A stretch of DNA of 64,000 bases from Haloterrigena salina JCM 13891 (GTDB lineage Archaea > Halobacteriota > Halobacteria > Halobacteriales > Natrialbaceae). Made by a program: the position numbers and the translations under genes. The notes beneath the pieces are model-generated. The model saw nothing but the letters and a program-made list of their open reading frames with translations. It made no database searches and was not told where the DNA came from. The stretch spans positions 1 to 64,000 of the forward strand of contig NZ_AOIS01000031.1 in the NCBI RefSeq assembly GCF_000337495.1, given 5' to 3'. This document shows, piece after piece, positions 54,847 to 58,388 of the stretch; within the stretch, counting starts at the first letter, position 1, and each line of letters opens with the position of its first letter.

Positions 54847-54885
54847 AGGGAAGGGCTCATTAGCCCCTAGTGAGAGGTGCTCCAC

Positions 54886-55602
54886 ATGGCTTCGTGGAAG
54901 CGGGATTTCGCGAGCGGGCTGATCGTCCTCGGCCCGATCCTGGTCACTCTCTACGTCATCTACTGGCTCTACGGCCTCGTCGCCGGGCTGACGCCAGGGC
55001 TCATTCTCCAGCCCGAGGCGCTCAAGCCGTTTATTCCCGGCGACGGAGCGCAGGCCATCCAGACCCGCGAGCAACTCGCGCAGTTTCTCCGGGTCATCGT
55101 CGCGCTAACCGTCTTCACGATCCTCACCTTCTCCATCGGCTATCTCATGCGGACGACCGTCGGCGGACTCGTCGAACGGGTCGTCGACAACGTCGCGAAT
55201 CGCGTCCCCGTGATGCGGGTCGTCTACAACGCCTCGAAAATGGCCGCCGAGACCGCCTTCGGCGAACAGGACTCGCTGCAGAAACCGGTCAAGATCGAGA
55301 CCTGGAACGGACTTCGGATGACCGCGTTCAAGACGGGAAAGGTGACCGACGACGGCCGCGAGGTGCTCTTCTTGCCGACGTCGCCGAACATCACGACGGG
55401 GTTCGTCGTCGAGGTCGAATCCGACCGAATCACGGAACTCGACGAGGACGTCGAGGACGCACTGACGCGCGTACTCAGCGCCGGATTCGGCGACGCGAGC
55501 CGCAACCGCGGGATGGACGCCGGCGTCTCGATCGACGTCGTCGACGAGACGAACGCCGGCGCGATAGAGGACGCCGGCACCGAACGAGCTGACGACGACT
55601 GA
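54886..55602 (+). CDS. DUF502 family membrane protein
   Basis: A 238-residue protein with two N-terminal membrane helices (about residues 8-32 and 62-88) and the DUF502 signature: DFASGLIVLGPILVTLYVIYW, NRVPVMRVVYNASKM, VKIETWNGLRMTAFKTGKV and FLPTSPNITTGFVVEV. The C-terminal part is soluble and acidic. I chose the ATG at 54886 (MASWKRDFASG); a GTG three codons upstream is possible. Function of the family is not established; it is linked to the membrane in bacteria and archaea. It starts 39 bases after the proline dehydrogenase stop. Confidence 0.85.
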   Translation: MASWKRDFASGLIVLGPILVTLYVIYWLYGLVAGLTPGLILQPEALKPFIPGDGAQAIQTREQLAQFLRVIVALTVFTILTFSIGYLMRTTVGGLVERVVDNVANRVPVMRVVYNASKMAAETAFGEQDSLQKPVKIETWNGLRMTAFKTGKVTDDGREVLFLPTSPNITTGFVVEVESDRITELDEDVEDALTRVLSAGFGDASRNRGMDAGVSIDVVDETNAGAIEDAGTERADDD

Positions 55603-55697: not shown

Positions 55698-56891
55698 TTA
55701 GACGCCCTGACTCATCAGGTGGCTGCGAAGCACATCGCCTTCCTTGTTGCCGGCGGTCGTGTTGACGATGACGACCGTCTCCGACCCGTCGAACTCGCCG
55801 CGCTCGGCCAGTTCCCACGCCCCGCTCGCCGCCGCGGCCGGGCTCGGCGCCAGCTCGAGGCCCTCGTGGGTGGCGACGCGGACGCCGGACTCGAGGATGT
55901 CCCGATCCTCGGTCGCGACCGCACCGCCGGCGGTCTCGCGGACGGCCTCGAGGACGCGCGATCCCGCCGGCGGATCGGCGATTTCGATCTCGCCGCAGAT
56001 CGTGTCGGGTCGATCGACCGATTCGTGATCGTCGCGGTCGTTCTCGAGGGCGTCGACGATCGGCGCACAGCCCGCGGCCTGTGCGGCGTACAGCGGCGGG
56101 AGCTCGTCGATGAGCCCGAGTTCGCGAAGCTCCGTCGCTCCCTTGTACGCTCCCACCAGCCCGACGCCGATGCCGGTCGGGTAACAGATCGCGTCGGGAA
56201 CCTCCCACTCGAGGGACTCGACGATCTCGAAGAGGGTCGTCTTCGCGCCCTCGTGGCGGTAGGGCGTCTCGAAGGGCTGCAGCGAGTACCAGTCGTCGTG
56301 TTCGCCCATCCCCTCCTCGTAGGCGCCGACGGCGTCGTCGAACCGGCCGCCGACGACGTTCATGTCGCCGCCGTGGACGTTGATCATCGCCTTGTTCGTG
56401 AAACTCGAGCGCGAGGGGACGTAGACGTGGGACTCGAGGTCGGCCCGGCCGGCGTAGGCCGCGGCCGCCTGGCCGCCGTTGCCCGTCGACGCGAGCGCGA
56501 CGTCGGTCGCGCCGTGCTGGGCGGCGGCCGTCGCGGCGACCGATGCCCCGCGGTCGGTCGTCGACCCCGTCGGATTTCGACTATCGTCCTTGATCAGCAC
56601 GCGTTCGACGCCGAGTTCGTCGGCCAGGTCGGGACAGTCGACCAGCGGCGTCGCCCCCTCGTTGGTCGTCACCGCCGACTCGCGGGGAAACGGGAGCAGC
56701 TCCTCGTAGCGCCACTGCGAGTCGAACGGTCGGTCCGCGAGAGTCTCGCGGTCGAGGTCGATCGCGTCGTACTCGTAGCTCGGATCGAGAAAGCCGTCGC
56801 AGTCGGGACAGCGGTGCGAGACCGCCTCGGCGTCGTAGGTAGCCCCGCAGTCGACACACTCGAGTCCGGCGAAGGCGTCGGTCGTCTCCAT
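55698..56891 (-). CDS. Threonine synthase paralogue lacking the PLP lysine
   Basis: The protein has the haloarchaeal threonine synthase layout: an N-terminal zinc ribbon (CVDCGATYD..CPDCDG), TTNEGATPLVDCPDLADELG, then the PLP-domain blocks ASTGNGGQAAAAYAGRA, YPTGIGVGLVGAYKG and TTAGNKEGDVL. In active enzymes the lysine sits in N-P-T-G-S-F-K-D-R-G. Here the block reads NPTGSTTDRG, so Thr112 replaces the PLP lysine and Thr111 the Phe (codon ACC at 56556-56558). It therefore cannot form the usual internal aldimine and is probably not a threonine synthase. It could be a regulatory or scaffold homologue, or use another amine. Length (397) is otherwise full. Confidence 0.82.
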   Translation of the reverse strand: METTDAFAGLECVDCGATYDAEAVSHRCPDCDGFLDPSYEYDAIDLDRETLADRPFDSQWRYEELLPFPRESAVTTNEGATPLVDCPDLADELGVERVLIKDDSRNPTGSTTDRGASVAATAAAQHGATDVALASTGNGGQAAAAYAGRADLESHVYVPSRSSFTNKAMINVHGGDMNVVGGRFDDAVGAYEEGMGEHDDWYSLQPFETPYRHEGAKTTLFEIVESLEWEVPDAICYPTGIGVGLVGAYKGATELRELGLIDELPPLYAAQAAGCAPIVDALENDRDDHESVDRPDTICGEIEIADPPAGSRVLEAVRETAGGAVATEDRDILESGVRVATHEGLELAPSPAAAASGAWELAERGEFDGSETVVIVNTTAGNKEGDVLRSHLMSQGV

Positions 56892-57008: not shown

Positions 57009-57707
57009 TCAAATCGCCGGGCGTTCGGCCGACGGCTGCTCTCGAGTCTCCTCGAGCGAGACGGAGTGGAGCCGCTCCCAGGTCCGCCCGATGACGTAGT
57101 AGGCGCTCACGAGCGCGTAGAACGACACGACCGCTCCGAGGACGGCCCCGAGAATCGGGATCTCGGTGAGCAGCCCGGAGAGCAACGCGCCCGCGAAGAC
57201 GATCCCGACGGCCTGCAGCCAGCCGACCGCGTACGTCCCGGTCGCGAGACTCGGGCGCAGCGTACCGAACTCGAAGCCGGCGCCGAGTCGGCCCTCCGTC
57301 GCGAAGCGGGCCAGCGCGGCGGGGACGGTGTAGGCGACCGCGAGCATGGCCGCGAGCGTCAGCAGGCTCGCGATGCCGAACGCCATGGTCCCGATCGTTC
57401 CCGGGTCGCCGCCAACCGCCAGCCAGACGCCCCCCAACAGGAGGGCACCGACGACGAACGGTAGCAGGCCGTACGCGAGGAGGATCGCGACGGCTTTCGC
57501 GCCGTCGACCGTCAGCGCCCGCCAGTCGTCGAACCGCGGCGCCTCGTCGTCGCCGCGACTCGTTCGCTCGAGCACTCGGACGACGTAGCCCCAGACGAGA
57601 ACGGCGGGGAGCACCAGAACGCTCGCCAGTACGAGCAGCCCGCCGATGATCGCCGTCTTCCAGACGTCGTCGCTGTTCTTCAAGTAGGTTACCGCGGTAG
57701 TGATCAT
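57009..57707 (-). CDS. DUF4013 family membrane protein
   Basis: A 232-residue polytopic protein with about five or six helices, starting ITTAVTYLKNSDDVWKT, with YVVRVLERTSRGDDEAPRFDDWRALTVDG, FEFG...L and ALVSAYYVIGRTW. This is the haloarchaeal DUF4013 pattern, whose members are often annotated only as membrane proteins. A strong TATA-like box (CGTTTATATAGTT) lies about 60 bases upstream of the ATG at 57707. No functional link to its neighbours is visible. Confidence 0.8.
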   Translation of the reverse strand: MITTAVTYLKNSDDVWKTAIIGGLLVLASVLVLPAVLVWGYVVRVLERTSRGDDEAPRFDDWRALTVDGAKAVAILLAYGLLPFVVGALLLGGVWLAVGGDPGTIGTMAFGIASLLTLAAMLAVAYTVPAALARFATEGRLGAGFEFGTLRPSLATGTYAVGWLQAVGIVFAGALLSGLLTEIPILGAVLGAVVSFYALVSAYYVIGRTWERLHSVSLEETREQPSAERPAI

Positions 57708-57990: not shown

Positions 57991-58167
57991 TCAGTTGTCG
58001 CCGGTCTTCGACTGCCACTCGTAGTCGCGGCGTTTGGCGGACTTGCCGAAGCCACACGACGAGCACTCCTTCTTTCTGGTGTGGTAGGACTTCTCTCCGC
58101 AGCGACGACATTTGGTGTGGGTCGTCTTGTTCTTCTTTCCTTGGCTTGGGGTTCCTGCGCCAGTCAT
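57991..58167 (-). CDS. rpl37e: 50S ribosomal protein L37e
   Basis: A 58-residue zinc-binding ribosomal protein with [34 protein letters not shown], the two CxxC pairs of L37e being CRRC and CSSC. It binds 23S rRNA in the large subunit. The ATG at 58167 overlaps the TGA of the Lsm gene by four bases, so the two are translationally coupled. This lsm-rpl37e pair is a conserved archaeal arrangement. An apparent longer frame to 58413 reads through the Lsm gene in another frame and is not real. Confidence 0.95.
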
Positions 58168-58388
58168 GGAGTGATCGAAACGACGTTGTCGCCGCGTATA
58201 ATCGTTGTGTCTTCGACCGGCGCCTCTTCGTCGACACCGGCTTCGGGAATCGTCACGTCCTCGAGCACGAGGTTCATGTGCTGGTCGTAGCCGGCCAGAT
58301 CGCCGACGTACTCGCCGCCACTCTTGAGTCGTACCGTGACGCGTTCGCCGAGCGACGCCTCGAGGACGTCCAGCGGTCGTCCACTCAT
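58164..58388 (-). CDS. lsm: Sm-like archaeal RNA-binding protein (Lsm)
   Basis: A 74-residue Sm-fold protein with [21 protein letters not shown] as Sm1 and the Sm2 region [14 protein letters not shown], including the I-R-G-D-N-V-V motif. It forms heptameric rings that bind U-rich RNA and small RNAs. The ATG at 58388 is preceded at about 28 bases by a TATA-like box. Coupled by ATGA to rpl37e, as in Haloferax volcanii. Confidence 0.95.

Follow-up and report, generated by a model that had tools for sequence, protein, structure and literature searches.

Within the window, by which we mean the whole stretch of 64,000 nucleotides of Haloterrigena salina DNA analyzed here, an open reading frame that runs on the minus strand from 56891 to 55698 (the first-pass annotation gave no strand) starts with ATG and encodes 397 amino acids without internal stops. 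The features of this gene and of two co-oriented upstream genes used as syntenic probes are as follows.

55698..56891, minus strand: threonine-synthase-like gene without the PLP lysine, 397 aa (open reading frame, domain, relatives, and fold)
56799..56858, minus strand: N-terminal zinc ribbon, Cys12/Cys15...Cys28/Cys31 (sequence)
56547..56576, minus strand: NPTGSTTDRG block, residues 106-115, normally NPTG[ST]FKDRG (sequence and orthologue comparison)
56556..56558, minus strand: Thr112 codon ACC, the position of the PLP lysine (sequence and orthologue comparison)
56478..56480, minus strand: Asn138, predicted contact of PLP O3', retained here and replaced by Asp, Ile, or others in many lysine-less relatives (orthologue columns; role presumed)
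56160..56177, minus strand: presumed one-time PLP phosphate loop TGIGVG, residues 239-244 (orthologue columns)
55752..55763, minus strand: presumed one-time PLP N1-binding strand end N377-T378-T379-A380, Gly379 lost (orthologue columns)
57991..58167, minus strand: upstream gene, presumably of ribosomal protein L37e (sequence, syntenic probe)
58164..58388, minus strand: upstream gene, presumably of an Lsm (Sm-like) protein (sequence, syntenic probe)

The view that this gene encodes a full-length threonine synthase (ThrC) homologue devoid of the PLP lysine, originally proposed from the sequence alone, was borne out. The protein matches PF00291 (PALP, fold type II; E = 7.5e-62) and solved threonine synthases (PDB 2d1f, 2.5e-42; 2zsj, 2e-41), and its predicted structure, confident over the entire length (mean pLDDT 97.3, pTM 0.94), has plant ThrC as the best PDB match (2c2b; Z = 50.0, rmsd 2.1, 390 residues), with bacterial threonine synthases at Z 43-48. 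The references for threonine synthase were TIGR00260, NF006050/PRK08197, and PDB entries 2zsj, 2d1f, 6cgq, 1v7c, and 2c2b. As in the original proposal, STTD stands in place of SFKD: the protein reads RNPTGSTTDRG, with Thr112 at the position occupied by lysine in threonine synthases and in the canonical ThrC of this genome (GSFKDRG). The first-pass annotation also held the zinc ribbon and the phosphate loop to be kept; this is correct for the ribbon, with C12, C15, C28, and C31 all present, but not for the loop, which reads T-G-I-G-V-G as opposed to TGGGVG in lysine-bearing orthologues, and Gly379, adjoining the predicted PLP-N1 residue, is replaced by threonine. Position 241 within the loop is glycine in 64 of the 69 lysine-bearing orthologues in Natrialbaceae and isoleucine in the window protein. 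The PLP-binding roles of N138, residues 239-244, and T378/379 in this protein are assignments that we assume.

The protein shares with ThrC the type II fold, the NPTG and DRG context, Arg212, a zinc-ribbon N-terminus like that of canonical haloarchaeal ThrC, and 32-38% identity with bacterial threonine synthases and the ThrC of its own genome; it differs in the absence of the PLP lysine and in the loop, TGIGVG compared to VGNAGN in the own-genome canonical ThrC (read in L002 and L176). A second, intact thrC, which the first-pass annotation proposed to look for, is present in the same genome (G000:C11), encoding a protein that is 38% identical, contains MNPTGSFKDRG, and scores 291.8 bits against TIGR00260; a further ThrC-like gene with GSFKD lies on C29. 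Because canonical ThrC is encoded elsewhere in this genome, and matches above the TIGR00260 cut-off were found in 123 of the 125 Natrialbaceae genomes, threonine synthesis would be independent of the lysine-less gene.

Orthologues and genomic context in Natrialbaceae

Orthologues (E of 1e-60 or better) were detected in 124 of the 125 Natrialbaceae genomes, the exception being a genome that is 70% complete. Lysine is present at position 112 in 69 of these and absent in 55, where the residue is threonine (27), alanine (15), arginine (7), or, in one protein each, M, D, E, G, V, or L. The loss is conserved among orthologues, an issue raised at the outset: 54 of the 55 lysine-less proteins belong to a single supported clade, and losses occur in other families as well. 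However, since 69 of the 124 orthologues keep the lysine, the loss is lineage-specific. The gene is present in five genomes of the same genus, four of which encode STTD and are 96-98% identical, whereas the fifth (G023) is 77% identical and encodes TFKD. A recent mutation is ruled out by the STTD common to the four near-identical genomes. The same motif is found in Natronolimnohabitans innermongolicus and Natronorubrum texcoconense, with SVRD in Natrinema mahii and SIAD in Natronoglomus mannanivorans; TFKD is retained in Natrialba and Halostagnicola.

In the tree constructed with the motif removed, the clade that unites the 54 lysine-less sequences includes 59 members (SH-aLRT 98); one lysine-less orthologue, L133, is placed outside. 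The other five members are Natrinema-type TSKD sequences (L022, L023, L035, L059, and L071), in which the lysine is embedded in a remodeled pocket that resembles the lysine-less state at positions 111, 136, 139, 216, 241, and 243; we suggest that this lysine was either regained or is the last feature to be lost.

The lysine-bearing and lysine-less genes are orthologues, rather than the products of replacement by an unrelated gene, because they are joined both by the tree and by a common locus. The Lsm probe was detected near the gene in 41 of 49 lysine-less and 31 of 64 lysine-bearing Natrialbaceae loci, and the L37e probe in 41 of 49 and 32 of 64, respectively; these counts include only loci of at least 4 kb and are lower bounds given the differing flank lengths. 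In the second context, a gene for a divergent flavin amine oxidase (PF01593; tblastn) lies upstream: outside Natrialbaceae, this is the case at 15 of 20 loci (11 lysine-less and 4 lysine-bearing), and within Natrialbaceae, at 15 orthologue loci (14 lysine-bearing and 1 lysine-less); in H. salina, this gene resides on a separate contig from the lysine-less gene. Neither of the two conserved contexts, Lsm-L37e and flavin amine oxidase, names a function. Closer to the gene, 57009-57707 and 54877-55602 encode predicted membrane-type proteins, which we take to be DUF4013-like and DUF502-like; their presence beside the gene is limited to some relatives.

Distribution of the lysine across Halobacteriales

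The family extends across the order, with matches at E of 1e-75 or better in 373 of the 392 Halobacteriales genomes. Other families were searched with a codon pattern in which the lysine codon was left free, and among the matches listed, lysine-less motifs appear in several of them (GSLAD, GAVTD, GSVAD, GTFED, GTIDD, GTVAD, GTFRD, GTVLD, GTFLD, GTVYD, and others). In family f5, searched likewise, the pattern yielded at least 89 rows, 66 lysine-less and 23 with lysine, the latter including other paralogues; of the matches from the first search, 53 rows were used. From these families, 79 loci were hand-picked, mostly to sample lysine-less motifs, so that the 47 lysine-less proteins among them do not represent a frequency; their residue 112 is A (15), L (9), T (7), V (5), D (3), R, H, or Y (2 each), N, or E (1 each).

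The order-wide tree includes 136 rows, namely, 49 of the 124 Natrialbaceae orthologues, the 79 loci from other families, and 8 outgroups (L223, a GCLKD paralogue, was left out). Parsimony requires 10 changes of state on this tree, 8 of which are forced by the starred branches alone; if regain of the lysine is disallowed, the number of losses is 17. One ancient loss is ruled out: an AU test on 43 rows, with the motif and pocket columns removed, rejected a single lysine-less clade (lnL difference 303, p = 0.000275), the group being defined by the trait itself and the tree coming from a quick search. At the shallow end, L159 (GTCND) and L207 (GTFRD) are recent lysine-less proteins adjacent to lysine-bearing sisters, the former with a nearly intact pocket and the latter with a few pocket changes.

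Several additional observations pertain to individual lineages. L221 (GTVKD) and L191 (GTFED) are sister sequences with strongly altered pockets, and only L221 has the lysine. At G466:C1:2775289-2776552, the lysine-less motif is matched twice on the same strand, at a distance of about 1.2 kb, which suggests a tandem duplication. Genomes of family f5 can hold a second, lysine-bearing copy beside the lysine-less one (L224, L226, L229, L230, and L237), the two belonging to different clades of the order-wide tree. L150-L155 and L053, with NPTNTFKDRG, constitute a distinct group of lysine-bearing paralogues, and the pocket of L150, the sole member read out, is intact and the same as in lysine-bearing orthologues.

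Constraint on the pocket and on the rest of the protein

The window protein and the lysine-bearing haloarchaeal orthologues (GTFKD/GSFKD) are alike in tree position, synteny, zinc ribbon, and 34 family-specific residues; the full pocket is found only in the latter. Their signature, FK-SANA-K-TGGGVG-NTG, is nearly constant, whereas the window protein has TT-STNG-A-TGIGVG-NTT and another lysine-less protein has VL-SPNG-I-TGTGEV-NTE. Across 16 PLP-site positions (111, 135-139, 239-244, and 377-380), changes in Natrialbaceae number 109/2058 in lysine-less compared to 20/1801 in lysine-bearing proteins (odds 4.98, p = 5e-14). In the other families, the same positions give 147/4063 compared to 26/1726 (odds 2.45, p = 6e-6), which is the fairer test because the positions were fixed once the Natrialbaceae columns were known but ahead of any look at the other families. 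Permutation among sites nearly invariant in lysine-bearing proteins of these other families gave p = 0.007, and in the same families the zinc ribbon does not differ between the two states (p = 0.83). Residues 295-305 are also accelerated in lysine-less Natrialbaceae (26 changes compared to 3), and therefore the pocket is not the sole relaxed region.

Comparison of 102 lysine-less and 101 lysine-bearing proteins (conservation of at least 93% and at least 90%, respectively) identified 47 positions in common with canonical ThrC and, at the same thresholds, the 34 family-specific positions, which are absent from nine canonical ThrC. The latter include D102, R161, F164, K167, N171, R183, C275, D296, E303, and E346, and, at the C-terminus, R389, S390, L392, and M393. 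The zinc-ribbon cysteines are incomplete in L191, L221, L234, and L242, three of which are lysine-less.

Conceivably, the lysine-less proteins could still be enzymes, either with a new PLP-independent chemistry or with K101, K167, or K217 forming the Schiff base. K101 and K167 are present in all 102 lysine-less proteins examined, and there is a precedent for a migrated lysine in pseudokinases, described in the accessible part of PMC10211241. Nevertheless, we deem this unlikely: the three lysines are equally present in the lysine-bearing orthologues and none arrived after the loss, while the phosphate loop and the other PLP contacts degrade in parallel. A search for a compensating lysine found none, no newly conserved lysine having been gained in the 102 lysine-less proteins relative to the lysine-bearing orthologues.

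Slightly more doubtful still is non-covalent binding of PLP or a PLP-amino acid, which would make the protein a dead-end external-aldimine sensor. The laboratory mutant K87T of TrpB has reportedly been crystallized with ligands in its active sites. Threonine at position 112 reproduces the state of this mutant, in which the homologous PLP lysine, also in a fold type II enzyme, is changed to threonine (PDB 2tys, the title of which refers to the ligands), and the window protein keeps both Asn138 and Thr378. N138 is still asparagine in 44, and T378 still threonine in 50, of the 55 lysine-less Natrialbaceae proteins, and therefore non-covalent PLP binding may be possible in these. However, TrpB K87T was engineered by one substitution that left the pocket otherwise intact; in the natural window protein, the pocket is eroding. 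Position 112 is not limited to threonine, and position 241 of the phosphate loop is Ile, Ala, Val, Asp, Ser, Leu, Glu, Thr, or His in relatives, which should disfavor phosphate. Both catalysis via another lysine and loose PLP binding are less likely than a PLP-free pseudoenzyme.

Slow decay of the gene, or its persistence as a relic that canonical ThrC has rendered dispensable, is a far weaker candidate. In its favor, canonical ThrC is present, the lysine-less genes change somewhat faster and form longer branches, and near-invariant columns drop from 44% in lysine-bearing to 32% in lysine-less proteins. Against it, the frame is intact in all 102 lysine-less proteins examined (357-428 aa), and the gene is found in nearly all genomes of the family and the order (124/125 and 373/392). 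The median dN/dS (Nei-Gojobori, pairs more than 88% identical, dS 0.05-1.2) is 0.129 (0.06-0.225) for 53 lysine-less pairs and 0.096 (0.04-0.226) for 91 lysine-bearing pairs; the lysine-less genes are under strong purifying selection, slightly relaxed compared to the lysine-bearing ones, which is hard to reconcile with decay. A pseudogene is ruled out by these values and the intact frames. The early suggestion that the gene has taken on a different function and is not a pseudogene is supported by the full frame, dN/dS far below 1, the loss common to orthologues, and canonical ThrC elsewhere in the genome. Finally, a sequencing or assembly artefact, a negligible prospect to begin with, is ruled out by STTD in four close relatives and the lysine-less state in dozens of independently sequenced species.

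Proposed function, precedents, and annotation

Two marks of a pseudoenzyme are found here: an essential catalytic residue is lost within an intact fold, and the protein is retained by purifying selection. Judging from the comparative data, we consider it probable that the gene encodes a pseudoenzyme with the threonine synthase fold and free of PLP, maintained because it binds, scaffolds, or regulates, as its lysine-bearing ancestor probably did already. A job without a need for PLP is indicated by the repeated loss, the freedom of site 112, the focused loss of PLP contacts, and the selection on the rest of the protein; since the loss recurs, the non-catalytic job probably predates it. Under this pseudoenzyme scenario, PLP binding and catalysis would have been lost from a protein whose lysine-bearing ancestor would have performed a non-catalytic role besides catalysis. 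That role, which presumably depends on the fold, on the zinc ribbon, and on conserved patches at about 161-183, 295-303, and 386-396, would be preserved by selection. Most likely, the protein would work by binding or as a scaffold; it might be a prozyme that regulates an active PLP enzyme (canonical ThrC, for instance) or might sense an amino acid ligand.

A broader reading, to which we give an even chance, is that a one-time PLP enzyme is kept cofactor-free across the order, its lysine lost repeatedly as the enzyme already had a selected non-catalytic function, with the extant proteins forming a natural series from the active enzyme through freshly dead forms (L159 and L207) to the deeply remodeled pseudoenzyme. 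Among fold type II enzymes, the PLP lysine is, to our knowledge, rarely lost in nature. Here it is lost repeatedly within one orthologous family in which close relatives still show either state, so that tractable haloarchaea would offer a direct test of the non-catalytic work of a PLP enzyme.

Regulation of active paralogues by pseudoenzymes is already known, for example by the prozymes of trypanosomatid AdoMet decarboxylase and deoxyhypusine synthase (accessible parts of PMC10211241 and PMC3663545). As in these prozymes, the catalytic residue is lost, the fold and selection are kept, and an active paralogue is present in the same cell; in contrast to them, a regulatory relationship is a candidate here, suggested by genomes that encode canonical ThrC along with the lysine-less protein. 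PLP fold type II also sets the present family apart from the pseudoenzymes of PMC10211241, the accessible part of which does not name it. In the literature searched, beyond whose reach most subscription papers lie, we found no description of the lysine-less family, and the accessible part of a paper on open issues in Haloferax makes no mention of thrC (PMC8305020). An insertion in thrC3 (HVO_2969) of Haloferax volcanii, which may be any of the thrC paralogues, yields a mutant requiring Gly, Ser, and Thr, according to the accessible part of PMC4300041.

The name threonine synthase looks wrong for the lysine-less proteins, and its use for them in databases amounts to mass misannotation. The window protein falls below the cut-off of TIGR00260 (152.6 bits compared to 167.1) but passes that of the NCBI equivalog model NF006050 (314.2 compared to 303), and 57 of 77 aligned members, lysine-bearing and lysine-less mixed, match this model at E of 2e-90 or better.
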